Source of the DNA: Acidobacteriota bacterium
GTDB taxonomy: Bacteria; Acidobacteriota; Terriglobia; Terriglobales; Acidobacteriaceae
Direction of reading: 5' to 3'
Length of the DNA stretch: 64,000 nucleotides
Assembly: GCA_018268775.1 (NCBI GenBank)
Contig: JAFDVV010000038.1
Span: 1 to 64,000 of the forward strand
Shown: piece after piece, positions 21,322-55,456 of the stretch
Numbering within the stretch: the stretch's first letter is position 1
Layout: each line of letters opens with the position of its first letter
Translations under genes and position numbers: made by a program
The notes under the pieces: model-generated
What the model saw: only the letters and a program-made list of their open reading frames with translations
The model's database searches: none
What the model was told of the DNA's origin: nothing

Positions 21322-22392
21322 GTGGTGCCTGTAGCTTCAATCAAACAACGGTATGTCGCTGTGACGATCGCGTTGTGTCTTGCAGCCGCTCATCATGGCA
21401 GGGCCCAGCAGGCCGCGGAGCCCGACAATCATGCCGGCCGCGTTCCCGTTATCTCCGGAGGATTCGGCTATGTCCACAATGTAAGTGGCGGAGCTACCTC
21501 ATTAATTCCCCAGATCAACCCGGTGCTCCTGGTTCCTTTTGGACAACATGTCCTTCTCGAATCGAGGACAGACTTTACAGGGTTCTTTGAGCGGCAGAAC
21601 CAAACGAGCGGTCCTTTCAAAGGAAAAGTGTTCAAGACGGTCGAGTTCGCTCAGCTCGACTGGTTCGCCAACAGCCACATCATGGCGGCCGCCGGACGCT
21701 ATCTTCTTCCATTCGGCATCTATAACGAGCGCTTTCAGCCCATCTGGATCAAAAACCTTCAGGATGCTCCCATCACGGCCACGATCGGCACTCGCACAAG
21801 CGGCTCTGGCGACGGGCTTATGCTAAGAGGCGTTGCGACTCAGAGACCGCAATACTCCCTTCAATACACGGCCTATTTTTCCGCGCACAGCAAGATCAAC
21901 CAATTGCAGGCAGCGCGCGTAGCCGGTGCCGATGCGAGCATCTATCTTCCCCAGGCACGGCTTGAACTCGGAACTTCTTACCAACGCTTTCTAGAAGGCC
22001 ATCGAATCAACAGTGTCGCGACGTACGCCTCGTGGCAGCCATCTTCCCAGCCGTTCGATCTCAAAGCGGAGTACGACCACAGCCATAACGGCCATGGATA
22101 CTGGCTGGAGACAGCGTACTCCTTCCGCCAGCTTTCAGCGCCCCATTTTTTTCAGCGCATTCAGACCGTCGCGCGTATTCAACAGTTCTTTGCCTCGAAT
22201 GGAGGAGGAAACGGGTTGCCTTCCATCGACACACAACGGTTCGACTTCGGACTGAACTACTACATACGCGACGATCTCAGATTCATCTCAAGCTATGGGC
22301 GGAGCTTCAGCTCGCACACAGATTCAAACATCTGGAACATCGGCTTTACCTACAGGTTCCTCTTCCCGTTGTGGCCGGAGAAAAGACAATGA
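21322..22392 (+). CDS. Outer-membrane beta-barrel (porin-like), first gene of CuA/cytochrome operon
   Basis: A 356-residue protein with an N-terminal signal peptide (VAVTIALCLAAAHHGRAQ) and then alternating hydrophobic/aromatic strands ending in IGFTYRFLFPLWPEKRQ, as in 14-16-stranded barrels. The motif AAGRYLLPFGIYNERF recalls phosphate-selective-porin or DcaP-like barrels. The GTG at 21322 has TGAGGAAAC immediately upstream. Its stop overlaps the next ATG by 4 bp (ATGA). Being coupled to cytochromes and a CuA protein suggests it is either the outer-membrane part of an electron conduit or a route for a metal or small electron shuttle. Confidence 0.75.
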   Translation: MVPVASIKQRYVAVTIALCLAAAHHGRAQQAAEPDNHAGRVPVISGGFGYVHNVSGGATSLIPQINPVLLVPFGQHVLLESRTDFTGFFERQNQTSGPFKGKVFKTVEFAQLDWFANSHIMAAAGRYLLPFGIYNERFQPIWIKNLQDAPITATIGTRTSGSGDGLMLRGVATQRPQYSLQYTAYFSAHSKINQLQAARVAGADASIYLPQARLELGTSYQRFLEGHRINSVATYASWQPSSQPFDLKAEYDHSHNGHGYWLETAYSFRQLSAPHFFQRIQTVARIQQFFASNGGGNGLPSIDTQRFDFGLNYYIRDDLRFISSYGRSFSSHTDSNIWNIGFTYRFLFPLWPEKRQ

Positions 22393-22682
22393 TCAACAAA
22401 GCGATATGCCTCTCTGCGCTTGCTCTATTGCTGCCGCTTCCAATCTATGCGGGCAAAGCCGGTAAAGCTCAGGACACCAACAAAGCTGCGAGCACCTCCG
22501 CGCAAAACAACGTCCAACCCGATGCGGCGGAGCGGGTGTTCGAAACAAACTGCGCGCGATGCCACATGCCCCCATCCGCGCTCTCCCAACGCACTACGGG
22601 CACGGTGGTGATGCACATGAGAATGCGTGCCAGGCTCTCACAGCGGGACGAGCAGATGCTTCTCAAGTATCTGGCGCCGTAA
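22389..22682 (+). CDS. Small periplasmic monohaem cytochrome c
   Basis: A 97-residue protein with a signal peptide (AICLSALALLLPLPIYAGKA) and one haem c site, Cys55-Cys58-His59 (NCARCH). The mature part is only about 75 residues, small even for class I cytochromes c. Several Met residues (MHMRMRARLS) could supply the sixth ligand. The ATG at 22389 overlaps the barrel gene's stop by 4 bp. It is probably an electron carrier between the outer-membrane protein, the CuA protein and the lipoprotein cytochrome encoded next. Confidence 0.82.
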   Translation: MINKAICLSALALLLPLPIYAGKAGKAQDTNKAASTSAQNNVQPDAAERVFETNCARCHMPPSALSQRTTGTVVMHMRMRARLSQRDEQMLLKYLAP

Positions 22683-22735
22683 CACACTCGAATGCAACCG
22701 AGTTACATCCATTGATTCATGGAGCAAACACCGCA

Positions 22736-23089
22736 ATGCCAAATGCTCGACAATTCTATGCTCTCGTCATCGCGCTGCTCTTGACGGCGACCTGCCATTG
22801 CGTTGCCCAGGAAAACAGCAACCCCATTGAAGTTCATGTGCACAGGTTTTCATTTCAACCCAACGAAATCACCGTAGCGAGAGGACAGCCCGTCACCATA
22901 AGACTTGTGTCCGGCGACGTAACTCACGGCCTCGTGGTCAAAAGCCTAGGGATCAATCTAACCGTATCGAAAGATCACCCCGTCGATGTCCGGTTTACGC
23001 CAGAGAAAGCCGGCGACTTCCGCGGCCAATGCGGCCGGTTTTGCGGAAAGGGCCATGGCTCAATGATCTTCATCATCCATGTGAAATAG
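22736..23089 (+). CDS. Free-standing CuA-domain cupredoxin (COX II-like, no catalytic subunit)
   Basis: A 117-residue protein with a signal peptide (about 1-25) and a cupredoxin fold carrying a complete CuA ligand set: His64 (DVTHGLVV), Cys99, Cys103, His107 and Met110 in GQCGRFCGKGHGSM. In cytochrome oxidase subunit II the residue at position 101 is usually Glu and donates only its backbone carbonyl; here it is Arg. There is no membrane hairpin as in COX II, and no subunit I, nitrous-oxide reductase or NO reductase nearby. The ATG at 22736 follows GGAG. Probably a soluble binuclear-copper electron-transfer protein. Confidence 0.88.
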   Translation: MPNARQFYALVIALLLTATCHCVAQENSNPIEVHVHRFSFQPNEITVARGQPVTIRLVSGDVTHGLVVKSLGINLTVSKDHPVDVRFTPEKAGDFRGQCGRFCGKGHGSMIFIIHVK

Positions 23090-23096
23090 GCAGGCT

Positions 23097-23630
23097 ATGA
23101 CGATGTTGCGCCTACCGATTGCCTTCGACCTTCTATTGCTTGCTTGCCTCTCCGGCTGTCGGGCCACGCCGCCGCCGAGCTTTGAAGCGCTAACCGTGCG
23201 CTGGGTCAAAAAGCATATCACCGTAAAAGGCACCCATCAGACGAACCCAATTCAGACGACCCCGCAAAGTATCTCCGACGGCAAGCACGCGTTTGGCTTT
23301 TACTGTGTGGTCTGCCACGGAAGGGACGGACAAAACACTGGGGTCCCTTTCGCAAATGGAGTCTCTCCCCCGATACCGTCTCTTGCCTCCGCCGAGGTAC
23401 AAAGCTACAGCGATGGCCAGTTGAAATGGATTATCGAAAACGGCATCGCGCCATCGGGCATGCCGGCATCGCGAGGGATACTGTCCGACGACGATATGTG
23501 GAGCATCGTAATCTACCTCCGCCACCTTCCGCCGGAAGGCAGCCTGGGAGACCCGAAGGCGTATTCAGGCGAGGAATTCGAAGATGAAAACCGGGCGTCG
23601 AACAAACCCACAGGCTCCTCTTCCAATTGA
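23097..23630 (+). CDS. Lipoprotein cytochrome c
   Basis: A 177-residue exported protein. The N-terminus has a lipobox-like LSGC with Cys21, and the haem c site is Cys70-Cys73-His74 (CVVCH). Met in GIAPSGMPASRG is the likely sixth ligand, and SDDDMWSIVIYLRHLP is a typical class I cytochrome C-terminus. The fold resembles the single-haem subunits of alcohol dehydrogenase or cbb3 oxidase. It starts 7 bp after the CuA gene, so the two are co-translated partners. The low-complexity tail (GEEFEDENRASNKPTGSSSN) is probably flexible. Confidence 0.87.
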   Translation: MTMLRLPIAFDLLLLACLSGCRATPPPSFEALTVRWVKKHITVKGTHQTNPIQTTPQSISDGKHAFGFYCVVCHGRDGQNTGVPFANGVSPPIPSLASAEVQSYSDGQLKWIIENGIAPSGMPASRGILSDDDMWSIVIYLRHLPPEGSLGDPKAYSGEEFEDENRASNKPTGSSSN

Positions 23631-23641
23631 GGTCCACGCAA

Positions 23642-24988
23642 ATGACTATTCCTCAGATCGTTTATGGCAGTCGCGAGCTTCATGTCCCATCTGAATTCCT
23701 GGCATTTCTGCTGGCGCTCCAGATGTGTGCCGCCAACGACGCACCCCTGGCATCGCTCAGCGACAGGCACTGGCAGGATTTGCTTTCCTTCTGCAATCGC
23801 GCCCAGCTTACGCTGCTGCTCTCACGGATGGATCGATCACTTCTACCGTTATGGGTGGCGGAACAGATCGAGCGGAACCTTGCCGACAACACAAAGCGGT
23901 CTGAACGGATCAAAGCCACCTATAACGAGGTTGCTTCCGCGTTGACCGCAGCCGGAGTTCCACACGTGGTCGTCAAAGGTTTCACACAGGTTCCCCACTA
24001 CGCTCCGGCCATCTGGTCTCGCAGCCAGTCTGACATCGATTTGTATTGTCCACCCGAATATCTTCAGCGTGCACAAGCGGCTCTGGAGTCCATCGGCTAC
24101 TCGGCAGACACCTCCAACGACTATCGCCACGCTGACCATCTGCCCATGATGGTGCGGAAAGGCGCATGGAAGTGGCGTGGAAACCACTTCGATCCCGAGA
24201 TGCCCTTGTCGATCGAGTTGCACTTCTCCTTATGGAACGCCCGCCTGCTCCTGAACCCCCTTCCTGAGATCGGACACTTCTGGGACCGCCGTCAGGTAAG
24301 ACAACTTGATGAGTTCAGCTTCCATGCACTCGGTCCCGTAGACCATCTCGCCTACTTCTCGCTGCACATACTGCGCAATCTGATCTTTGGGAGCTGGGTC
24401 GTCCACCACGTATTTGAACTCGCGTATTTTCTCCACCAACACGCAGATAACGACGAGTTCTGGAGGAAGCGAGCGCAAACCCATTCTGCTTCGTTGCGGT
24501 CATACCAGGCGGTCGCCTTCGCTTATGCAAAGAGCTGGTTCAACTGCAATCTTTCCAGCGAAGTAGAACTGGAGATATCACAGCTCGCTCCCGCGATCGG
24601 ACACTGGCTCAACTTCTATGTGTTCTCCTCTCTCGGTGGGATGTTCCACGAGACGAAGGACTGGGCGCTTTTGAACGCCGTTCTGGTACCTTCCACGGCG
24701 CAGGGTTATACGTGGCTTCGCCGCATGCTCTTCCCGCAACGGATGCCGCGGAGAAACTCCCATGCAATCTACTTCAAGGACAGAAAGCCACGTGCCACTT
24801 CAACCGTGCTGGGCGAGGAACTGGCACCCGCTCGCAGGCTCCGCTATTTGATCTATGTGTCTGGGCGAATATTCACGCATCTGCTTGTCATCACAAGGAC
24901 CCTGAGCAAAGGCCTCCTGTGGTGGCTCACAATACCTGAACTGAATCATGAGGCTACTCAGAAGCCGATGGACACTGTGCCTCGTTAG
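23642..24988 (+). CDS. NTP_transf_5 family nucleotidyltransferase
   Basis: A 448-residue protein of the uncharacterised nucleotidyltransferase group found in lasso-peptide and HPr-rel-A/exosortase gene sets. The nucleotidyltransferase core shows VVVKGFTQ (Lys112-Gly113) and SQSDIDLY with Asp131 and Asp133 as metal ligands; a helical C-terminal half follows. The ATG at 23642 has GAGG upstream; a TTG five codons earlier is less likely. It lies 11 bp after the cytochrome gene, so it belongs to the same operon, and its last 35 bp overlap the convergent MFS gene. The substrate, peptide or glycan, is unknown. Confidence 0.8.
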   Translation: MTIPQIVYGSRELHVPSEFLAFLLALQMCAANDAPLASLSDRHWQDLLSFCNRAQLTLLLSRMDRSLLPLWVAEQIERNLADNTKRSERIKATYNEVASALTAAGVPHVVVKGFTQVPHYAPAIWSRSQSDIDLYCPPEYLQRAQAALESIGYSADTSNDYRHADHLPMMVRKGAWKWRGNHFDPEMPLSIELHFSLWNARLLLNPLPEIGHFWDRRQVRQLDEFSFHALGPVDHLAYFSLHILRNLIFGSWVVHHVFELAYFLHQHADNDEFWRKRAQTHSASLRSYQAVAFAYAKSWFNCNLSSEVELEISQLAPAIGHWLNFYVFSSLGGMFHETKDWALLNAVLVPSTAQGYTWLRRMLFPQRMPRRNSHAIYFKDRKPRATSTVLGEELAPARRLRYLIYVSGRIFTHLLVITRTLSKGLLWWLTIPELNHEATQKPMDTVPR

Positions 24989-26276
24989 ACATATACGGAC
25001 GCTTGCCGCTGCGGCACATCATCGGCGAGACGAGCCATTTGAAAAGCGCCGCGGCAACTCCAGCAGCCAGCATAAGCGCAATCAAAACATTTGAGTACCC
25101 AAAATGGACCAGGCAGATACCGGCTAGCGCCGTCGCAGCTGCCTGCACCACAGAGTTGGAAAATATCGTTAGCGACGACGCTGAGCTTCTGATCTTGTCG
25201 GGAACGCTATCCATCAGCATGCTATATAGGCCCGGGCTGCTCATCCACTGGCCTGCGGAAAGGACGAGATAGATCGCAACTGCATGTGAGCTCGTCGAAG
25301 ACACTGCCAGCAAGCCGAACGCAGATGCTGCGATCGCTTGCGTCATTACAATGCCATTGGTACGGCCTACTGCCTGATAGAGCTTGGGCGCTACCAATCC
25401 TGCAAGCAACTGTGCTATTTGTGCGGCAGAGAATATCCAGCCCAGTTTCGCCAATGGCATTTGGAAGCTGCGCACAAAATAGACACTCACAAAAGGTGTA
25501 AACGCGGCGGCAACCGCCGACCACAAAGCCATCGCTGGAAGAAACCGCACAAGAAACGGATTCAACCCTTGCCTTCCCTCTTGCACCGAAGAAACTGCAG
25601 CTTCTGCTACAAGAGGAACACGCAACTTATATAAAGCCACCACGCCCAGCAATGCACAGACACAAGCCGACAACAGAATCATCTGCTTGATGTGTACCGG
25701 TGAAGCAACTATGCCGAAGTCATGCAACCAAAAAGGCAGATAGCCGCAGACGAGGCCACCGCCCGCGCTGCTTCCTATGCTCACCGAAAATATCAGGCTG
25801 AACGCGAAAGCCCTGTTTTCTTCATTGGTCAGACGGGCCACCACAGGAGAAAAGCACACACCCCACAGACACATCGCTATGCCGCCCAGAAATGCCAGCA
25901 GAAATTGTGAGGTCTGCGCGGTAAACAGCACGCGCAGGACTCCTGCAAGCGGCGCCACACAGAAGCAAACCATGAGCACCTGCCACAGCCCTGTTTTTTT
26001 TGCCACAATCCCCGCGGGTACGGTTCCTACAATAGAACCAAGTGTCAAGGCTCCGCCGATAAATCCCATCATGCGCTCGTTGAAGCCGCAGTCGAGCAGA
26101 TAAAGATTGAATAAGAAGAAGTACACAGCGAAACCAAGGTCGAAGAAGAACGCTGCCGTAAAGAACAGCCAGAATTCATGGCTAAGCCTTCTGTCCGAAC
26201 CGCCTGCCACAGAACAAGGAGGACCTCCGGCACCTTGATTCGCAGCCAAACCTTCGCCATCAAGGGTCGAGGTCAC
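24954..26276 (-). CDS. MFS transporter
   Basis: A 440-residue major facilitator protein with about 12 membrane helices; the first begins near residue 33 (FWLFFTAAFFFDLGFAVYFF) and the loop between helices 2 and 3 reads GIVAKKTGLW. The C-terminal helices are Ala-rich. A soluble polar N-terminus of about 30 residues precedes helix 1. The GTG start overlaps the kinase stop by 4 bp (GTGA), so the two are translationally coupled. By context it may export a product made or tailored by the kinase and nucleotidyltransferase; an import role cannot be excluded. Confidence 0.88.
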   Translation of the reverse strand: MTSTLDGEGLAANQGAGGPPCSVAGGSDRRLSHEFWLFFTAAFFFDLGFAVYFFLFNLYLLDCGFNERMMGFIGGALTLGSIVGTVPAGIVAKKTGLWQVLMVCFCVAPLAGVLRVLFTAQTSQFLLAFLGGIAMCLWGVCFSPVVARLTNEENRAFAFSLIFSVSIGSSAGGGLVCGYLPFWLHDFGIVASPVHIKQMILLSACVCALLGVVALYKLRVPLVAEAAVSSVQEGRQGLNPFLVRFLPAMALWSAVAAAFTPFVSVYFVRSFQMPLAKLGWIFSAAQIAQLLAGLVAPKLYQAVGRTNGIVMTQAIAASAFGLLAVSSTSSHAVAIYLVLSAGQWMSSPGLYSMLMDSVPDKIRSSASSLTIFSNSVVQAAATALAGICLVHFGYSNVLIALMLAAGVAAALFKWLVSPMMCRSGKRPYMSNEAQCPSASE

Positions 26277-27280
26277 TTACCCTCCATCAGCAGCCGCTCC
26301 AATCGCGAGATTGCCCAGTCAAGCTCGGAGTAGTGCATCTCCCAGACTTGCGCCTTCGTCAGTAGGCGCTCCATTGTTTTCTCGTGCTGAAGCATCCCCT
26401 CGACGGTGCCAAACATTGAGCGACGCATAAAATCGCGGGTCTCCTCCTCGTCGTACAGCGATATGCCCGCAGGTCTTCTGTCTCTTCTATTTAGAAATAC
26501 GATGTGCTCGATATGCGCTGCAGGCGCGAAGTCTATCTCCGGCAACGAGTGGATAGGGATCTCAATCGACGGCTTGCCCGCTGCGCGCGGAGTAATTTCA
26601 CGGCCGTCTACCTCAGGAAAAAGTTCCGATGCGGATGGGCGAAAGCGAATTTGATAGCAGTTTCCCACTGCCACGCCTGGTTCGTCGCTGTCATGGGCAA
26701 AGTAGGTTGCATCGTCCGTAACGTAGGTCCACCCGGCGCGCGCACAGGCAAACGATAGTGTTGACTTGCCATCTCCCGATTCGCCGCAAAGCAATATCCC
26801 CCGGCCATTCCTCGCAATACATGCAGCATGAACCGGAAGCGCAAGGCTCCCTGCGATGTGACAAAGGGGCGTGCTGCCCACAAGAAAGTATTGCATCCAC
26901 AAAGGACTCCGCAGCGCACCGGGGGAGAGCGTGACATGACTAACTCCGCGCCTCAGGTCTCCGATGCTCATATTCACCGGGTCGGCAACACTCATCATCA
27001 AGCCGTCTCGCAAAGTAAAGACTGGTTCCAGGGGGAGATCGTGCGTTCCATACTCCACGGCTTCGACGTTCAACTCTATTGGTTCGTTTGAAAAGCGCCT
27101 TTCAAAACGTCCAAACATCTCCTTCATCATGTTCAGCACACTTGCGGAGTTTGTCGATACATGCAGCGTAAACCCGTAGGGATGCAGCATCTGCTTGAGA
27201 GGAAGCGCCGGCGGTATCAACCCGCGATATCTTTCAGTCGATCTTTCCTGAGTTGCCTGCACCGGTTCGCTCCATTCCAT
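26273..27280 (-). CDS. HPr kinase-like P-loop protein (peptide-kinase type)
   Basis: A 335-residue protein whose second half resembles HprK/P. It has His151 in LPVHAACIARNG, Walker A GESGDGKST at 166-174 and VTDDATYF (Asp189/Asp190) after it. The N-terminal 120 residues are not the usual HprK N-domain. This architecture matches the HPr-kinase-related proteins of peptide biosynthetic loci, some of which phosphorylate the C-terminal Ser of lasso-peptide precursors. No HPr or PTS gene is near. It begins 2 bp after the TonB-receptor stop and overlaps the MFS start, so all three form an operon. Confidence 0.78.
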   Translation of the reverse strand: MEWSEPVQATQERSTERYRGLIPPALPLKQMLHPYGFTLHVSTNSASVLNMMKEMFGRFERRFSNEPIELNVEAVEYGTHDLPLEPVFTLRDGLMMSVADPVNMSIGDLRRGVSHVTLSPGALRSPLWMQYFLVGSTPLCHIAGSLALPVHAACIARNGRGILLCGESGDGKSTLSFACARAGWTYVTDDATYFAHDSDEPGVAVGNCYQIRFRPSASELFPEVDGREITPRAAGKPSIEIPIHSLPEIDFAPAAHIEHIVFLNRRDRRPAGISLYDEEETRDFMRRSMFGTVEGMLQHEKTMERLLTKAQVWEMHYSELDWAISRLERLLMEGK

Positions 27281-27282
27281 CT

Positions 27283-30200
27283 CTAAAACGAGTACCGCGC
27301 CGCCAGTTGAATCACGCGCGGGTTTGTCACCGTCCCCGTGATCTTGCCAAACGACGGGCTTGCGACTGGATTGGGGTCAGTTGGATCTCCGTATCCAAGA
27401 AAATTCGACGGATTGGCAAACTGCGGTGTATTGGTAAGGTTGAAAAACTCTGCCCTGAAGCGAAAGCTCTGGTTCTCAGTGATTGGGAAGATTCGCTCCA
27501 CAGCAGCATCGATGTTCCGTTGTGCCGGTCCGCGAACGATTCCTACGCAGCCGTTGCCAAAGTCCTGGTCCGCCAGACTGGTTCCATTGGGTGCCTCAGG
27601 CGCGCGCGTGAAAGCCGACGGATCGAGATACAACCCGTTGACGCGTTGAAACAGCGATCCGGCGGTCGCAGGACTGCTGCCTGTTCTCTGCGCGCGGTTC
27701 TCAAAGTTTCCATAGACCGACCCCGCATTGCCGTCCATTACAGTAATAGGGCTTCCAGACTGAATTACGCCTATTCCCGAGAACGACCAGTTGCTTAGCA
27801 CATCACGTGCAACAGCCGGCATCGTACTCAGCTTTGGAGATTGCCAGGTGAAGCTGAGGACCCCTCGGTGGGTACGGTCGAAGTCTGTCAAACCATATGC
27901 TTGCCGTGGATTGTTTTGGTCGTTTGTAAGAAGCCACAACTCAAAAAGTCCGCTTCCGCCTGACCCGCTTGTCTGGTCGAGGCTCTTGGACCATGTGTAG
28001 CTCCCACGAAATTGAAGACCCTGGCGAAGGCGTCTGACGAGGCTGGTCTGCAAGGAATTGTAGTTGGCAATGAACTCCGATTTCGTAAACAGCGACCCGG
28101 GGCTTATTCCCTGATAGGGCAACCTTTGAATGAGGTTGTTGGTTGAGTTTGTCGTCTCCCCATTGATTGGATGCGAAGGGCTCGCCAGCAATGCCTGGTT
28201 GAATTCGATCGATCCCGGCCTGTGCGTCGAACGCGTACCGACATAGCCCAACTCAAGCAGATAGTCCGTTGCAAAGGCGTACTGCGCATTGACGTTGTAT
28301 TGCTGAGTGTAACCATCCACCGTGCCGGGAGCGATGCCTTCCACAAATGGAAAACCAAAAGGCACCCGCGGAGAGAAGATCGGATAACTTGAAGGCGATG
28401 GCAGCAAAGGCGCAAACGGACTGGCGAGCGTCGCACCGGCATTGGCCGAATCAGACTGTATCTGTTGCGTCGAGAAGGGTGCCTGTCCCTGCGTCGATTC
28501 AACGTAACCATTCGAATGGCGGTCGTAGTAGACACCGTAGCCTCCGCGCAGAACAACAACCGGCTTTGATGCCATCTGCCACGCAAAGCCGACCCGGGGC
28601 GAAATGTCGCCGTGCCGCGTCGGCCACAATCCCCTGCTTGTCAGCCTCGTGACACCCTGGGGAACGGTACCTTGAAAGTTTGCAGGAACGACAAATCCGC
28701 TCAGGCTCCCCGAAGGCGGTACGCTTCCAATTGCAATGCCTGGATCGAAGTTTGGTAGCCGACCGTTTGTCTCAAAGGGCGAGCCGAATATCTCGTATCT
28801 CAACCCGATGTTCAGCGTAAGACGCGGAAGAACCTTGTAGTCGTCCTGCACGAATGCCGCGAAGTCCTTATATCTCGTGTCCTTCCGCGATATGCCGGAG
28901 CCACCGGTCGACTGCGTTACATTGCTCGACCCGATGGGACTTCCGTTCTGCGATGCACTTTGCCCAACTAAGAAGTCGGCGAAAGTCCTGATGTCGAGAA
29001 GACCATCCTTTGAAAACGGCGCATCGAGATCGACCTGATTGTATTTGTACTCCGCGCCAAAGCGCATGTTGTGCCGGCGCCGCACCCAGGACACCATGTC
29101 CTGCCAGATAAAGGCGTTCGTCACCTGCCATTGACCGGGCGTGCCGGCATCGCCGATCGTGAACAATCCATCTACCGTTATCCCAGGGATTGGAGAGTCT
29201 TTTGCAGCCGCGCCTGTCGGGGTTCCGATTCCCACATCGTTCGCGAAGATAGGCTTTCGTACGGTGGAGATCCCGTCGAAGCGCATATATCCCGCGCGTG
29301 CCACGTTCACAAGATTGCCGCTGAAGGTATGTGTTTCCGACAGGACGAACATCGTATTCCGGTCCTGACTATCCGTCCCCCACCCAGGAACGTTTGCGGC
29401 ATTCGGCGAAAACGGCTGTTGCGTGGGCGCACGCGAGTAGAAGAACCTTGCACTCAAAGTGTCCTTCGCATCCAGCGTATGGTCCAGGTTCGCGGAGAAC
29501 TGGTTCTCCTTATAGGTTGCGGGCAACGCAAACGTCGATTGTCCAACCGGCAATTGTGATGCGTCGCTCAGGGCAACAGCCGTTTGCGGACTGGGAATGG
29601 CGAACTCCCCGCTTGCCAGCTTTAGATTGAGGATCGCCAGAGCCACGGGATTGATATTCGACCCATCGCAGGCAACCTGCGTCCCTCCTGCGTGCGTCAG
29701 GTAGCCCGTTGCCGGTGTACCGTCCGGGGCCAGATGGTTCGCTGGACAGAACTGCCGGCCCAGCGTCGCAGCAGACCGGTCGCCCGTAAGCTGCGGTAGC
29801 AGCGCAGTCACCTTGCCTCCCAGACTGTTTGCCGACGTCAGCCCTTGATAGGCAAGAAAGAAGAACGTGCGGTCTCTGCGAATGGGCCCGCCGAGAGAAC
29901 CGCCAAACTGGTTCTGTTTCAGAGTTGGCCGTTTCTGCCCTCCCTGCTTCAGAAAGAAATCGTTCGCGTTGAAGATATCGTTGCGCAGAAACTCCCATGC
30001 GCTGCCATGAAACTTGTTCGTGCCGGTTTTGCTCACCAGGTCAATATTGGCACCGGAACCGCGGCCGTACTCCGCATCGTAGTTTGCCGTCTGCACCTTA
30101 AACTCCTCGATGGCATCGGGCGCGGGTATCGCGGTCCCAATCTCGTTGCCATCGTTTGCCATCGAGTTCTGCGCGAGGTTGTTCGCGTCGATGCCGTTGA

Positions 30201-30792
30201 ACAAGACGTTGTTCGACACAGTCTTCGCCCCGTTGGCAGCTACATTCTGCGTGCCTCGTCCCAGTTCGGCTGCGTTGGGGAGTTCAACAACGATCCCAGG
30301 AGACAGTCCTAGAATCTGCGTATAGTTGCGGTTGGCCAGCGGGAGCGCTTCGACTGCGGCATGGTTGACGCTGCCTCCCAGGTTAGAACTCTCCGTTTGC
30401 ACAAGCGAGGTATTGGCATCGACCTGTATAGCGGTCTCCACTCCTGCGATTGGAAGCACGATGTGTAACGACACGGTTTCAGTTACGGCGACCTGCACCC
30501 GGTTCAATATCTTCTTCGCAAAACCCGGCGCAACACCTTCAACCGCATAACTGCCCGGTTGCAGCAGCGCAACGACAAAGGTGCCCTCATCCGATGTGGC
30601 TGTTTCCCGAAGGACTCGGGTCGATTCGTTGGTGACAGTCACCTCGGCGTTGCGCAGCGGAATCCCAGCGGCATCGAGCACCACGCCACGGATTGCTCCC
30701 GTACCCGGCGCCTGGCAGAACGAAGCCACGCCTGACGGCACGAAACATAGTGCAATCAATAAACGACGCTGGAAAAACGATTTGGTCTTCAT
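27283..30792 (-). CDS. TonB-dependent receptor, Oar-like with carboxypeptidase-regulatory domain
   Basis: An 1169-residue outer-membrane receptor. A signal peptide (about 1-27) precedes a CarboxypepD_reg/Cna-B-like domain (GAIRGVVLDAAGIPLRNAEV, about 32-110), then a plug domain with LPLANRNYTQILGLSPGIV, NNVLFNGIDANN, DAIEEFKVQTANYDAEYG and KTGTNKFHGSAWEFLRND (to about 300). A large barrel ends in RVIQLAARYSF with the C-terminal Phe used by the BAM machinery. Such receptors are multiplied in Acidobacteria and take up oligosaccharides, peptides or metal complexes. It is the first gene of the operon with the HPr-kinase-like and MFS genes, which suggests a peptide-like ligand. Confidence 0.93.
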   Translation of the reverse strand: MKTKSFFQRRLLIALCFVPSGVASFCQAPGTGAIRGVVLDAAGIPLRNAEVTVTNESTRVLRETATSDEGTFVVALLQPGSYAVEGVAPGFAKKILNRVQVAVTETVSLHIVLPIAGVETAIQVDANTSLVQTESSNLGGSVNHAAVEALPLANRNYTQILGLSPGIVVELPNAAELGRGTQNVAANGAKTVSNNVLFNGIDANNLAQNSMANDGNEIGTAIPAPDAIEEFKVQTANYDAEYGRGSGANIDLVSKTGTNKFHGSAWEFLRNDIFNANDFFLKQGGQKRPTLKQNQFGGSLGGPIRRDRTFFFLAYQGLTSANSLGGKVTALLPQLTGDRSAATLGRQFCPANHLAPDGTPATGYLTHAGGTQVACDGSNINPVALAILNLKLASGEFAIPSPQTAVALSDASQLPVGQSTFALPATYKENQFSANLDHTLDAKDTLSARFFYSRAPTQQPFSPNAANVPGWGTDSQDRNTMFVLSETHTFSGNLVNVARAGYMRFDGISTVRKPIFANDVGIGTPTGAAAKDSPIPGITVDGLFTIGDAGTPGQWQVTNAFIWQDMVSWVRRRHNMRFGAEYKYNQVDLDAPFSKDGLLDIRTFADFLVGQSASQNGSPIGSSNVTQSTGGSGISRKDTRYKDFAAFVQDDYKVLPRLTLNIGLRYEIFGSPFETNGRLPNFDPGIAIGSVPPSGSLSGFVVPANFQGTVPQGVTRLTSRGLWPTRHGDISPRVGFAWQMASKPVVVLRGGYGVYYDRHSNGYVESTQGQAPFSTQQIQSDSANAGATLASPFAPLLPSPSSYPIFSPRVPFGFPFVEGIAPGTVDGYTQQYNVNAQYAFATDYLLELGYVGTRSTHRPGSIEFNQALLASPSHPINGETTNSTNNLIQRLPYQGISPGSLFTKSEFIANYNSLQTSLVRRLRQGLQFRGSYTWSKSLDQTSGSGGSGLFELWLLTNDQNNPRQAYGLTDFDRTHRGVLSFTWQSPKLSTMPAVARDVLSNWSFSGIGVIQSGSPITVMDGNAGSVYGNFENRAQRTGSSPATAGSLFQRVNGLYLDPSAFTRAPEAPNGTSLADQDFGNGCVGIVRGPAQRNIDAAVERIFPITENQSFRFRAEFFNLTNTPQFANPSNFLGYGDPTDPNPVASPSFGKITGTVTNPRVIQLAARYSF

Positions 30793-49969: not shown

Positions 49970-51244
49970 ATGACACAGAAATCTCTGCGTGCCATGGCCC
50001 TCGCCGCCGTTCTGTCCTGCACGGGACCGGCGCTTGTGGCACAGGCCCCTCCCACCACACCACCGCCGACGACGCCGCTTACGTTACAGCAGGCCGTAGC
50101 GCGGGCGTTGGCTGCGAACCCAACCCTGTTGTCGGCGCAGCAGCACGTCTCAGCCGTCGAGGCCAACAAGATCACCGCGGGCCTGCGCCAGAACCCCAAC
50201 CTGACGTTGTTGGGCCAGAGTGTGACCCTGCCCGAGGCACCCGCCAACGGTAACCCCTTCTTCTATTCCGCGAACGTCTCGCGACTGTTCGAACGCGGAC
50301 AGAAGCGCCGGTGGCGGCTCGATTCAGCCACGGCGACGGCGGAATCGACCGCCAGCCTTTACAAAGACCAGCAGCGCCAACTGGTGCTCGCCGTCCGCCA
50401 GGCATTCACCAATATGCTTCTGGCCAAGGCATCCCTGGCCGTGGCCGAGGAGAACCTGACGGACTACCAGAAGACGGTAGACCTGAGCCGTTCGCGCCTG
50501 GACGCGGGCGACATCACGCGCACCGACTTCGAGCGCATCGACCTGCAGCAGGCGCAGTTTGAAGCCGACCGAGACAACGCGCGGCTCAATATGCAACAGA
50601 CTTCCGCGCAGCTTCAACTTTTGTTCGGCATCGAACGCCCCTCACCGGGCTTCGACATCACCGGCACGCTCGAACCACCCGCGCTTCCGTTGACGCAGAC
50701 CGAGGCCGAGGACAAGGGACTCGCCTCGCGCCCCGATTATCTTGCGGCTCGGCAGGCGCTGACGGCCGCCGAAGCGAACTCGCGGCTGGCCATCGCCGGG
50801 GGAACGACCGACCCCACACTGTCGGGGGAGTACGAGCGCAACGGCGCCGACAACACCTACGGTCTCAGTGTGCAGTTCCCTCTGCGCATCTTTGATCGCA
50901 ACCAAGGCGAAAAGTCGCGCACGCGCTACGAGGTCGAATCGAGCCGCCAGGCGGTGACAGCAGCACGCAACCAGGTGGTCTCCGACGTCGACATCGCGTG
51001 GATGGGCTTCGAGACAGCCCAGCGGCTGGCCGAGCGTTACAACGGCCACTACCTCGACGAGGCGGGCCGCGTTCGCGACAATCTCCAGTTCAGCTACCGC
51101 AACGGCAACTCCACGCTGCTCGACTATCTGTCGGCGCTCAGGGACTATCGGGCGGTGCGGCTTAGCAGCTTGAACGCGAACGCACAGGTCTGGCTCGCGC
51201 TCCACCAACTCAGCTTCGCCACGGCGACGGACATTTTGCCATGA
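49970..51244 (+). CDS. TolC-family outer-membrane efflux channel (CzcC/CusC-like)
   Basis: A 424-residue outer-membrane factor. A signal peptide (to about 25) is followed by two OEP repeats of long helices: LTLQQAVARALAANPTLLSAQQ opens the first, and LGLSV-type strand YGLSVQFPLRIFDRNQGEKSRTRYE in pieces opens the second. LQFSYRNGNSTLLDYLSALRDYR is typical of CzcC-type proteins. It forms the exit duct for the RND pump encoded downstream. Its stop overlaps the adaptor gene's ATG by 4 bp. Confidence 0.93.
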   Translation: MTQKSLRAMALAAVLSCTGPALVAQAPPTTPPPTTPLTLQQAVARALAANPTLLSAQQHVSAVEANKITAGLRQNPNLTLLGQSVTLPEAPANGNPFFYSANVSRLFERGQKRRWRLDSATATAESTASLYKDQQRQLVLAVRQAFTNMLLAKASLAVAEENLTDYQKTVDLSRSRLDAGDITRTDFERIDLQQAQFEADRDNARLNMQQTSAQLQLLFGIERPSPGFDITGTLEPPALPLTQTEAEDKGLASRPDYLAARQALTAAEANSRLAIAGGTTDPTLSGEYERNGADNTYGLSVQFPLRIFDRNQGEKSRTRYEVESSRQAVTAARNQVVSDVDIAWMGFETAQRLAERYNGHYLDEAGRVRDNLQFSYRNGNSTLLDYLSALRDYRAVRLSSLNANAQVWLALHQLSFATATDILP

Positions 51245-52371
51245 AGGACCCCATGAAGAAGAACGGCATGAATACGCTTCCGATACGAATCAACTCGCTG
51301 CTCCTGCTCGCGGTTGTTGGCCTTCCGCTGACCGCGTGCGAATCATCGGCCCCACCGGCCGAGGCAACCCGGCCTGCGAACGCGGGCGTGGATACGATGG
51401 TCGCCCACGTGCAGCAGAGCACCGACTACCTCGACATCCCCGCGCGCATCACCGCCGACCCCTCGCGCGTGGTGCACGTCTTTCCACCGTTGAGCGGACG
51501 CATGCTTGGGCTGCGTGTGCTGCCGGGGCAGGAGATTGCCAAGGGCGCGGTCGTGGCCACGCTCCAGAGCAGCGACATCGCCTCCGCGCGTTCGGACTTT
51601 GAGAAGGCGAAGATCGAAGTACTCCGCGCCGACCGCGCGCTGACGCGCGGCAAGATACTGCTGCAACACGATGTGCTGTCGCAGGCCGACTACTACGAGC
51701 TTGAGGCGACCGACCAGACGGCGCACTCCGAGTTGGAGCGCGCGCGTCAGCGCATCCACGAGCTTGGCTTCTCCGAGGACAGCAACTCCGACGAGGTGGC
51801 CCTGCGCGCGCCGATCTCGGGCGTGGTGCTCGACATCGGCACGGCGGCGGGCGAGATGCAGCGCTCGCTCGACAACGCTGCGACGATTGCGACGATCGCC
51901 AACATCGATTCGGTGTGGGTCGTCGGCGACGTCTTCGAGCGCGACCTGAAGAGCGTACAGCCGGGCCGCGAGGTGCAGATCGTCGTCCCCTCGTATCCCG
52001 ACCTGAAGCTGACGGGGCGGGTGGCCAACATCGGCGATGCGCTGGACCCGGCGACACACACGCTCAAGCTGCGCGTGGTTCTTCCCAACCCGAAACACAC
52101 TTTGAAGACCGATATGTTCGCCACCATCCGCGTTCCCGGCACGGCGCACAGCGCGGTGGTTGTGCCCGCGACTGCGGTGCTGCACGATGGCGACAAGACT
52201 TCCGTGTTTGTTCAGAACGGGTCGGGCAAGTTCGACCAGCGTCCCGTAACCATCGGCCGCACGTTCGACTCTGGCGCAGTGAAGACCGTCGAGATCCTCG
52301 GCGGCATCAACGACGGCGACAAGGTCGTCACAGCCGGCGGAGCTCTGCTTCGCCCAACGAACGGAGACTGA
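51241..52371 (+). CDS. RND efflux periplasmic adaptor (CzcB/CusB-like lipoprotein)
   Basis: A 376-residue membrane-fusion protein. Lipobox LTAC with Cys33 anchors it to the inner membrane. The barrel-sandwich halves LSGRMLGLRVLPGQEIAKGAVVATL and LRAPISGVVLDIGTAAGEM (in pieces) flank a helical hairpin, then a beta-barrel domain (VWVVGDVFERDLKSVQPG) and a membrane-proximal domain. There is no N-terminal metal-binding Met/His-rich extension as in some CusB proteins. It is coupled to the channel gene and lies 4 bp before the pump gene. Confidence 0.93.
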   Translation: MKDPMKKNGMNTLPIRINSLLLLAVVGLPLTACESSAPPAEATRPANAGVDTMVAHVQQSTDYLDIPARITADPSRVVHVFPPLSGRMLGLRVLPGQEIAKGAVVATLQSSDIASARSDFEKAKIEVLRADRALTRGKILLQHDVLSQADYYELEATDQTAHSELERARQRIHELGFSEDSNSDEVALRAPISGVVLDIGTAAGEMQRSLDNAATIATIANIDSVWVVGDVFERDLKSVQPGREVQIVVPSYPDLKLTGRVANIGDALDPATHTLKLRVVLPNPKHTLKTDMFATIRVPGTAHSAVVVPATAVLHDGDKTSVFVQNGSGKFDQRPVTIGRTFDSGAVKTVEILGGINDGDKVVTAGGALLRPTNGD

Positions 52372-52375
52372 GCGC

Positions 52376-55300
52376 GTGCAATCCCTGATTCGACTCTTCA
52401 TACGCAACCGCGCCATCGTGCTCATTGTCTTCGCGGTAATGATGGCCGCGGGCGCATTCGCGCTCTCGCGGCTGGACATCGAGGCATACCCGGACCCCTC
52501 GCCGCCTCTCGTCGAGGTCATCACGCAAAACCCGTCGTGGTCTGCCGAAGAGATGGAACAGCAAGTGACGGTGCCGGTGGAGACGACGCTGAACGGCACC
52601 CCTCATCTGGACCAGGTGCGCTCGATCTCGATCTTCGGCCTGTCCGACGTGAAGCTCTACTTCAGCTTCGGCTCGGACTACTTCCGCGACCGGCAGGAGG
52701 TATTGAACCGCCTTCAGACGCTGCAACTGCCGAACAATCTGCAACCGCAGCTCTCGCCGTGGTCGCCCATCGGCGAGATCTACCGCTACCAGCTCACCGG
52801 CCCGGGCTACACACTCAATGAACTCAAGGCCACGCAGGACTGGCTGGTGCGTCGCGAGCTGAAGCAGGTGCCAGGCATCATCGACATCACCACCTTCGGC
52901 GGCACCACGCGCCAGTACCAGGTGGAGGCCGACCCGAACAAGCTGATCGCCTTTGGCGTGACGCTGCCGCAGGTGATCACGGCCATCCAGAACTCAAACG
53001 CCAACGCGGGCGGCAACTACCTTCAGATGGGCAACCAGAACGTCAACGTACGCGCCATTGGACTGGTGCGCGGCACCGAAGACATCGCCTCCATCGTGGT
53101 CGCGCAGAAGAATGGCGCACCGATCAAGGTGGGAGACATCGGCACCGTAAAGGAGGGCTTCCAGCCACGTCTGGGACAGGTGGGCCGCGACAAGCAGAAC
53201 GACATCGTGCTCGGCATCGTGCTGCTGCAAAAAGAAGAGCAATCGCTGCCCGCGCTGAAGGGCCTCAAGGAGAAGATCGCGGCGCTCAACAGCGGGACGC
53301 TGCTTCCTCCGGGCATGAAGATCAGCACGATCTACGACCGGAGCACCCTGATTGCGAACACCACGCACACGGTGTGGGAGATCGTCGCCATGGGTCTGTT
53401 CCTGGTGACCTTCGTCCTGCTCTCGACACTTGGCGACATTCGGATCACCTGCATCGCGGCGGTCACTATTCCCTTCTCCATCCTGTTTGCGTTCGGCATG
53501 ATGGTGGTGACGGGCCACTCGGCGAACCTGATCTCGATCGGAGCGATCGACTTCGGCATTCTGGCGCACGCCTCCATCATTGTGACGGAGAGCATCTTCC
53601 GCAAGTTTTCGCGGCGCGTTCCGGGCGAGGAGACGCGCGACCTGATCGTTGAAGGCGCCACGGAAGCCGCGCGCCCGGTGCTGTTTTCGACGGCGAGCAT
53701 CCTGGTGTCGTTCATCCCTCTGTTCACCATGCAGGGCGTCGCCGGCCAGATATTCGCGCCGATGTCGGTCACGTATGGGTTCGCGCTCGGCGGTGCGTTG
53801 ATGTTCGCGCTGATCTTCTCTCCCGTGCTGGCGTACGTTACCGCTCCGACCGAGGTCAAGATCGGCGGATCGCGAAATACGCGGTTTGGAATCTGGCTGC
53901 GCGAGCGCTATTCGCAGATATTCGAGGGCATGATGCGCCGCTCCCGCATGGTATGGACGCTCGCCGGTCTGGGAGTGCTGTGTGGCGTGCTCTGCTTCAT
54001 CTTTGTCGGCGGCGAGTTCATGCCGCCCCTGGAAGAGGGCAACCTGTGGATCCGCGTGACGCTGCCTCAGGACATCTCGTTCGACACGGCGGCGGACCTC
54101 GCCAACCAGTTCCGTGCGCTGGTCGCGGAGTCGCCCGAGGTGACGCAGACGACCTCGCAGATGGGGCGGCCCGACGATGGCACCGACGTCACCACCTTCA
54201 ACAACGTTGAACTCTCCGTACGCTTGAGCCCCGCCTCGAAGTGGCGGCCGGGCCTTACGAAGCCCGCGCTGATCGACGAGATCGGCAAGCGCCTCTCTCG
54301 CTACCCAGGTGTCGAACTCAACTTTTCGCAGAACATCCAGGACAATGTGGAAGAGGCAATGTCGGGCGTGAAGGGAGAGAACTCGCTGAAGCTCTTCGGA
54401 GACGACTTCGACACGCTCGAGAACTATGCCCAGAAGATCGAGGGCGTGATGAAATCGGTCCGCGGTGTCACGGACATCGGCATCTTCCAGGTCGGGGGCC
54501 AGCCTTCGCTGATCATCCACATCAACCGGGCCGCAGCGGCACGCTATGGAGTGATGCCTGGCGATATCAACGCCGCCATCCAGGCCGCTGTTGGTGGCGC
54601 GGCCGTCTCACAGGTGATTGAAGGAGACCGCCGCTTCGACCTGACGGTACGGTACCCGCTGACCTCCCGCGGCAATATGGACGAGATACGGCGCATCCTT
54701 ATTCCCGCCGCCGACGGCTCCAATGTTCCGCTCGGCCAGTTGGCCGACGTGAGCATGCGCAATGGCAGCTTCATGATCTACCGCGAAGGCGGCCGGCGAT
54801 ACATCCCGGTGAAGTTCTCGGTGCGCGGGCGCGACCTTGCCAGCACCATCAAAGAGCTTCAGGGCAAACTCTCCGACCAGGTCAAACTGCCGTCCGGCTA
54901 TAACTACACATGGGCCGGCGAGTTCGACTCCCTGCGCAAGGAGCAGCGCCGCCTGCTGGTGATCGTGCCCATCTCGATCACCATCATTACGCTGCTGTTA
55001 TATATGCAGTTCGGGTCGTGGCACGATGCGTTGCTCATCATCGCCATCCTTCCGCTATGCGCGGTCGGCGGTATGGCGTCGCTCTTCATCTCGCACACAC
55101 CGTTCAGTATCTCGGCAGCCGTAGGGTTCACCTCACTGCTGGGTATCGCAACGCTGGGGTCGGTCGTCTTCGTCACTGGCGTGCGCCGCGCACAACGGGA
55201 AAACCCCACGCCCGAGGGCCTGCACCACGGCTGCGTCGACGAGATGCTGCCAGTCATCATGGCCTGCTTCGCCGCGGGGCTTGGGCTGCTGCCCGCCGCC

Positions 55301-55456
55301 GTCTCGCATGGCATCGGAGCGCAGGCGCAGCAACCGCTGGCGAGGGTCGTCGTCGGAGGCATGGTCACGACAGTCCTCTCGATCCTCTTCGTCCTGCCGC
55401 TGATGTTGCGGCACCCGCCCAGCCACCCGATATCGAACATCGGCGAGACGGAGTGA
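52376..55456 (+). CDS. RND heavy-metal-type efflux pump (CzcA/CusA-like) with altered proton relay
   Basis: A 1026-residue inner-membrane RND transporter with 12 predicted helices and two large periplasmic loops. NPSWSAEEMEQQVTVPVET and SIFGLSDVKLYFSFGSDYF mark the first porter domain, and GEFMPPLEEGNLWIR the second. The HME-RND helix 4 motif DFGxxxDGAxxxxE here reads DFGILAHASIIVTE: Asp392 and Glu405 are kept but the middle Asp is His398 (codon 53567-53569). The substrate could be a divalent metal, Cu/Ag or something non-metal. GTG start, 4 bp after the adaptor gene. Confidence 0.93.
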   Translation: MQSLIRLFIRNRAIVLIVFAVMMAAGAFALSRLDIEAYPDPSPPLVEVITQNPSWSAEEMEQQVTVPVETTLNGTPHLDQVRSISIFGLSDVKLYFSFGSDYFRDRQEVLNRLQTLQLPNNLQPQLSPWSPIGEIYRYQLTGPGYTLNELKATQDWLVRRELKQVPGIIDITTFGGTTRQYQVEADPNKLIAFGVTLPQVITAIQNSNANAGGNYLQMGNQNVNVRAIGLVRGTEDIASIVVAQKNGAPIKVGDIGTVKEGFQPRLGQVGRDKQNDIVLGIVLLQKEEQSLPALKGLKEKIAALNSGTLLPPGMKISTIYDRSTLIANTTHTVWEIVAMGLFLVTFVLLSTLGDIRITCIAAVTIPFSILFAFGMMVVTGHSANLISIGAIDFGILAHASIIVTESIFRKFSRRVPGEETRDLIVEGATEAARPVLFSTASILVSFIPLFTMQGVAGQIFAPMSVTYGFALGGALMFALIFSPVLAYVTAPTEVKIGGSRNTRFGIWLRERYSQIFEGMMRRSRMVWTLAGLGVLCGVLCFIFVGGEFMPPLEEGNLWIRVTLPQDISFDTAADLANQFRALVAESPEVTQTTSQMGRPDDGTDVTTFNNVELSVRLSPASKWRPGLTKPALIDEIGKRLSRYPGVELNFSQNIQDNVEEAMSGVKGENSLKLFGDDFDTLENYAQKIEGVMKSVRGVTDIGIFQVGGQPSLIIHINRAAAARYGVMPGDINAAIQAAVGGAAVSQVIEGDRRFDLTVRYPLTSRGNMDEIRRILIPAADGSNVPLGQLADVSMRNGSFMIYREGGRRYIPVKFSVRGRDLASTIKELQGKLSDQVKLPSGYNYTWAGEFDSLRKEQRRLLVIVPISITIITLLLYMQFGSWHDALLIIAILPLCAVGGMASLFISHTPFSISAAVGFTSLLGIATLGSVVFVTGVRRAQRENPTPEGLHHGCVDEMLPVIMACFAAGLGLLPAAVSHGIGAQAQQPLARVVVGGMVTTVLSILFVLPLMLRHPPSHPISNIGETE

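Follow-up and report, generated by a model that had tools for sequence, protein, structure and literature searches.

A free-standing CuA protein encoded with an outer-membrane barrel and two cytochromes c in Acidobacteriota

CuA is the textbook wiring of oxidases and nitrous-oxide (N2O) reductase, and in Acidithiobacillus electrons from Cyc2, a fused porin and cytochrome, pass to rusticyanin and Cyc1. The barrel of Cyc2 is predicted to have 16 strands and its fused cytochrome was proposed to sit at the periplasmic mouth of the barrel; in MtrCAB, MtoAB and PioAB, a decahaem cytochrome is enclosed by a barrel of 26 strands (PMC8406198). CuA is also found in PmoD/AmoD, where it is formed across a homodimer by the non-canonical motif Cx7MxHxnC, the canonical one being Hx34Cx3Cx3Hx2M; PmoD/AmoD has a C-terminal membrane helix and goes together with pmo/amo (PMC6189053). 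The operon described here has features in common with each of these systems. It lies in a stretch of 64,000 nucleotides (the window) from an Acidobacteriaceae genome (assembly GCA_018268775.1, contig JAFDVV010000038.1, positions 1 to 64,000) and encodes an outer-membrane barrel, a mini-cytochrome c (cytA), a free-standing CuA protein and a lipoprotein cytochrome c (cytB), which might together form a short electron relay at the outer membrane.

The operon and its closest described systems

The source genome has a size of 3.99 Mb and is 99.6% complete. The four genes, and within the first of them the DNA of a loop that is discussed below, are located as follows:

21322..22392, forward strand: outer-membrane 16-stranded porin-like barrel with signal peptide, 356 amino acids, GTG start (AlphaFold, Foldseek)
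21706..21804, forward strand: DNA of the L3-like loop inside the barrel gene, mature residues 101-133 between strands 5 and 6, LPFGIYNERFQPIWIKNLQDAPITATIGTRTSG (column conservation)
22389..22682, forward strand: cytA, secreted monohaem mini-cytochrome c with CxxCH and an invariant His-Met 17-18 residues further on
22736..23089, forward strand: free-standing periplasmic CuA cupredoxin, 117 amino acids, ligands H64, C99, C103, H107 and M110
23097..23630, forward strand: cytB, lipoprotein class I cytochrome c with lipobox LSGC and CxxCH (Pfam; tblastn matches in relatives)

Positions and order of the genes, from the signal-bearing barrel through the monohaem cytochrome and the CuA protein to the lipoprotein cytochrome, were confirmed as originally predicted from the DNA alone, and so was the mature size of cytA of about 75 residues with a single CxxCH. 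The ATG of cytA at 22389 overlaps the stop of the barrel gene by 4 bases (ATGA), and the run extends to a fifth gene on the same strand, an NTP_transf_5 gene 11 bases after cytB. A promoter and terminator scan of the operon found none, which is below the shuffled expectation, and its limits are therefore set by gene spacing alone.

The CuA protein has a signal peptide and is without a membrane anchor. In Pfam it matched COX2 with 32.5 bits (cut-off 22) and Cupredoxin_1 with 42.4 bits (cut-off 27), and its nearest solved structures are the Thermus ba3 CuA domains (E ~1e-13; 2cua), with which, as with CoxII, it shares the CuA ligands and, by sequence, the cupredoxin fold. The ligands His64, Cys99, Cys103, His107 and Met110 agree exactly with those of the original prediction and stand in the canonical spacing (H-x34-C-x3-C-x3-H-x2-M) within one chain. 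All five are kept in 43 of 44 homologues, the exception being L093 with Arg replacing the first Cys, so that the ligand set is not due to chance, and judging from it the protein would be expected to bind binuclear copper. CoxII, unlike the operon CuA, has a transmembrane part; COX2_TM of Pfam found no match in the 117 amino acids of the CuA protein but does match the CoxII of an oxidase in the relative L143, and the CuA protein reached 46 bits against a CoxB equivalog cut-off of 147.7. In a first-pass CuA tree of 97 columns, the membrane CoxII of these genomes formed a separate group (Shimodaira-Hasegawa-like approximate likelihood ratio test, SH-aLRT, 96). N2O reductase was rejected as a candidate, as only its CuA part matched, with 33 bits against a cut-off of 625.

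Among 58 cytA sequences, residues C53, C56, H57, H74, M75, R76 and R78 are invariant. The model of cytA has three helices with the His-Met pair in the second; it is confident only there and weak outside residues 44-95, and its comparison with solved structures gave low-Z helical matches only, which were uninformative. The second cytochrome, cytB, contains a class I cytochrome c domain above the Pfam cut-off.

For the barrel, an AlphaFold model from 70 sequences has 16 strands with a mean predicted local distance difference test (pLDDT) score of 92.4, and a 33-residue segment is predicted to link strands 5 and 6. At this position general porins carry the constriction loop L3. Mean column conservation of the L3-like segment was 0.71 as compared with 0.60 elsewhere in the barrel, and residues 106-120 reached 0.80. 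The best Foldseek matches were the porins OmpT, OmpU, OmpM1, OmpF and Omp32, with template modelling (TM) scores of ~0.6. General porins (OmpF/OmpU/OmpM1/Omp32) share with the barrel the 16 strands and the loop between strands 5 and 6 at an identity of ~8-14%, but none was found co-encoded with a cytochrome and CuA. Pfam and NCBIfam gave no family for the barrel of the window, and Porin_O_P (PF07396) appeared in 2 of 16 barrel members with a best E of 0.025, none above the family cut-off. Few Met, His or Cys columns are kept, only one Met and one His column reaching 70% conservation, and thus nothing points to a metal or haem site within the barrel.

The Cyc2-rusticyanin-Cyc1 chain likewise combines a 16-stranded outer-membrane porin, as modelled for the operon, with a periplasmic cupredoxin and a cytochrome c. 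However, porin and cytochrome are fused in Cyc2 and encoded by separate genes in the loci read, and the cupredoxin of the Cyc2 system is of type 1, whereas that of the operon has the CuA ligand set. The Cyc2 motif AXPXFAR[QK][TY] before CxxCH was present in 0 of 58 cytA sequences, and its DNA pattern matched once in the source genome, where no haem motif was seen to follow. Membership in Cyc2 was ruled out by the unfused genes and the absent defining motif. With MtrCAB, MtoAB and PioAB the operon has an outer-membrane barrel and a c-type cytochrome in common, but an MtrAB-type conduit was excluded by 16 strands in place of 26 and by a single CxxCH, that is, one haem. PmoD/AmoD, the other CuA-type cupredoxin outside oxidases, differs in that the operon CuA is canonical and lies within one chain; it was rejected for this motif, for the missing C-terminal helix and because no pmo genes were recognised in the loci read.

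Distribution in the phylum and neighbouring genes

A scan of 84,980 species genomes yielded 76 barrel loci, nearly all of them titled Acidobacteriota. Exceptions were the metagenome bins L097 and L113, labelled Gammaproteobacteria and Rhodanobacteraceae, which are suspected to be mis-binned. A cytA-type CxxCH...HM lies at most 500 base pairs downstream of the barrel in 70 of the 76 loci, a count that covers loci with enough downstream DNA and includes the window, and the two genes often overlap; in L126, L131 and L135, cytA sits just before CuA instead. Within the class, 50 of 250 genomes, belonging to families f1 and f7, had the barrel, with a single match per genome, and the outlier family f70 elsewhere in the phylum also has it. 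Another search found two barrel matches each in two genomes, one of these being a split gene. From the f1 genomes common to both searches, 17 had barrel and cytA and 14 had neither. Barrel and cytA are a single-copy Acidobacteriota module.

A strong CuA match accompanied the barrel in 22 of 22 barrel genomes, as compared with 1 of 39 others among 61 relatives (Fisher p 1e-15, which ignores phylogeny), and these include genomes in which both lie ~10 kilobases (kb) apart or on different contigs. Barrel-cytA and CuA-cytB behave as separable pairs, and the four-gene order searched for in other genomes was contiguous in some and split into these two pairs in others. Genes of relatives were taken from a home-made selection of open reading frames (ORFs), in which small genes may be missed, and names marked as given by resemblance reflect a reading of the sequence and not a family search. 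No description of the module, and no paper on a stand-alone CuA or on DUF5777, was found in the open-access literature searched, which is weak evidence, as most subscription papers lay outside it; the conserved gene set is apparently undescribed there.

Downstream of the operon, the window contains four genes that recur around the module in Acidobacteriaceae:

23642..24988, forward strand: NTP_transf_5 nucleotidyltransferase, ATG at 23642
24954..26276, reverse strand: MFS transporter
26273..27280, reverse strand: HprK-like kinase, in close relatives located between cytB and NTP_transf_5
27283..30792, reverse strand: Oar/TonB-type large outer-membrane protein, named by resemblance

In deeper lineages the run is barrel-cytA-CuA-DUF5818. 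The haem-A genes ctaA and ctaB and a DUF420 gene lie just upstream of the module in L091, L098 and L105, and in L093 and L106 its neighbours are genes of the PqqC family and of the metallo-beta-lactamase fold (PqqB-like). Family f70 has an NtrC-type two-component system ahead of barrel-cytA-CuA, and NrfH/NrfA-type cytochromes are divergent; at L175:3182-7990, barrel-cytA-CuA follows an NtrC-type two-component system and is divergent from NrfH/NrfA-type nitrite reductase genes. A small protein with T1-copper-like residues and a coiled-coil barrel-like protein, together with a histidine kinase and a response regulator, were seen at L063:1244-1963 and L108:10430-12007. This set recurs near many loci and is a possible second barrel/cupredoxin pair.

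Free-standing CuA was also found with other partners. In another acidobacterial family (L238:6116-7953 and L237), a cassette consists of an NtrC regulator, CuA, a CxxCH protein and a DUF5777 barrel and is apparently independent of the operon, and L182 has a coiled-coil putative porin followed by CuA and a DHOR dihaem protein. In six loci (L222, L223, L224, L226, L227 and L230) the free CuA is accompanied by a calcineurin-like phosphoesterase and by ECF sigma/anti-sigma genes, identified in L226 by Pfam and in the others by resemblance. Further examples are L178:9612-15947, where CuA lies within a pst-like phosphate-transport operon (by resemblance), and L180, where it occurs with PSCyt/DUF1501 genes.

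Proposed function and alternative explanations

The near-inseparable barrel-cytA pair and the carriers accompanying it across genomes point to a relay. Tentatively, the operon is best read as encoding a short relay that carries electrons in the periplasm and is docked on the outer membrane; it would probably run inward from a small diffusible partner. For the docking, the order of electron transfer, the inward direction and the substrate, we infer the following scheme. As has been proposed for the fused cytochrome of Cyc2, cytA would be located where the barrel opens to the periplasm, and it would receive electrons from a small redox partner that diffuses into the pore; CuA would collect the electrons from cytA, and cytB would pass them on to the ordinary cytochrome c/oxidase chain. 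The layout would be that of an unfused Cyc2-rusticyanin-Cyc1 chain with CuA in the place of rusticyanin. An inward direction was preferred, since high potentials are typical of carriers such as CuA and class I cytochromes c, and by analogy only, Fe(II) might be the obvious first candidate for a substrate. That CuA, cytochrome and barrel are combined repeatedly in the phylum with other partners (L238, L182) was also counted for the relay. A more specific version, in which a split porin/monohaem gate independent of Cyc2 oxidises a small external donor and passes the electrons through soluble CuA to the respiratory chain, is doubtful.

The original prediction had proposed a dedicated electron-transfer module that possibly carries electrons through the outer membrane or delivers them to a secreted acceptor. 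Its first part stands, as co-occurrence and linkage speak for a dedicated, conserved redox module at an outer-membrane barrel whose CuA is not an ordinary oxidase subunit; the second gains no support from an ordinary-sized 16-stranded porin. According to the model, such a barrel cannot accommodate a multihaem wire, and a small substrate entering the pore could at most meet the cytochrome. Outward transfer, in which the module would export electrons to an acceptor outside the cell, is therefore very improbable: an outer-membrane barrel with a lipoprotein cytochrome might suit it, but the set has no multihaem or surface cytochrome and the usual high potentials of CuA and class I cytochromes generally disfavour mineral reduction.

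Several observations weigh against the relay. The L3-like loop and the lack of conserved metal ligands inside the barrel would also fit a plain diffusion porin, and the co-occurrence counts come from related genomes. In the CuA tree, with its 97 columns only, the Acidobacteriaceae and the deeper barrel-linked CuA groups are not one clade. The free CuA proteins beside metallophosphoesterase/ECF-sigma and pst-like genes have no evident barrel-cytochrome pair. In Acidobacteriaceae, a polysaccharide-export locus (Wza, Wzi, Wzz-like, flippase, O-antigen-ligase-like, two-component system) is often found nearby, and a respiratory role does not explain this neighbourhood together with the HprK and NTP_transf_5 genes. 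This frequent linkage, the general-porin fold with its loop, the weak similarity to Porin_O_P and the separability of the two gene pairs in many genomes would instead suit a barrel that is a nutrient or anion porin only, with the cytochromes and CuA as a periplasmic chain feeding a separate enzyme whose gene lies elsewhere, or an oxidative step tied to the locus for surface polysaccharide. Such an explanation is somewhat unlikely, as cytA keeps to the barrel and not to the polysaccharide genes, barrel-cytA-CuA occurs without a polysaccharide cluster in deeper lineages, and the loci showed no oxidoreductase as a common partner.

Another explanation assumes copper handling, in which copper would enter through the barrel, Cu(II) would be reduced by the cytochromes, and the CuA protein would serve as a copper store or supply cuproenzymes with the metal. 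A copper-binding-type protein beside an outer-membrane barrel and an RND-type OEP/HlyD_D23 efflux pair in the same window (49970-52371) are in line with this idea, but the CuA ligands form the full electron-transfer set and not the motif of a chaperone, genes for Sco, PCuAC or CopC were not recognised next to the operon, conservation of 70% is reached by only one Met and one His column of the barrel, and two conserved cytochromes would be left unexplained. Copper handling thus appears improbable. The efflux pair belongs to a forward-strand run at 49970-55456, consisting of an outer-membrane efflux protein, an HlyD_D23 (CusB/HlyD type) fusion protein and a 1026-amino acid ORF, which resembles an RND efflux system.

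Finally, the CuA protein might be a subunit II in detached form, working with an orphan subunit I of a heme-copper oxidase. The source genome has three full COX1 genes and a NorB-like one with only one ordinary CoxII, and the best structural relatives of the CuA protein are ba3 CuA domains. On the other hand, the additional COX1 genes are closely paralogous to the paired one, and the CuA protein is without a membrane anchor and linked to a porin, not to COX1. In the barrel-bearing genomes G001, G010, G013, G024, G025, G030 and G031, every COX1 match has a CuA-bearing CoxII within ~3 kb, and the free CuA is kept nevertheless. As the oxidases of relatives have a CuA-bearing CoxII of their own, it is unlikely, judged by sequence, that the free CuA is a missing subunit II, and a role as the detached partner of an orphan subunit I is the most remote of the explanations considered. 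That no oxidase subunit lies near the operon had been predicted and holds for the surroundings read, with none in the window and the one ordinary CoxII elsewhere in the genome; no COX1 is linked to the CuA gene near the operon. Among relatives, a linked oxidase set was found in L143 (same locus as L067), where a divergent caa3-type cluster lies ~2.8 kb from the barrel; this oxidase has its own CuA subunit II and therefore does not make the free CuA its subunit. In the source genome, the COX1 genes at L187:8261-9919 (contig C53) and L188:9221-10948 (C26), with no CoxII found beside either, are close paralogues of the COX1 of the complete oxidase on C82.

Carriers of the module include the cultured Terriglobus roseus, Edaphobacter, Granulicella and Terracidiphilus, so that the proposed relay is directly testable. 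If true, a canonical CuA that is soluble, formed by a single chain and not part of a terminal enzyme would have a natural physiological role, and a porin-tied soluble CuA in a highly abundant soil phylum would add a new role for the CuA site. The findings suggest that in soil Acidobacteria the outer membrane and the respiratory chain are connected by a separate line for electrons; for soil bacteria, this may be a new way of exploiting small redox compounds.
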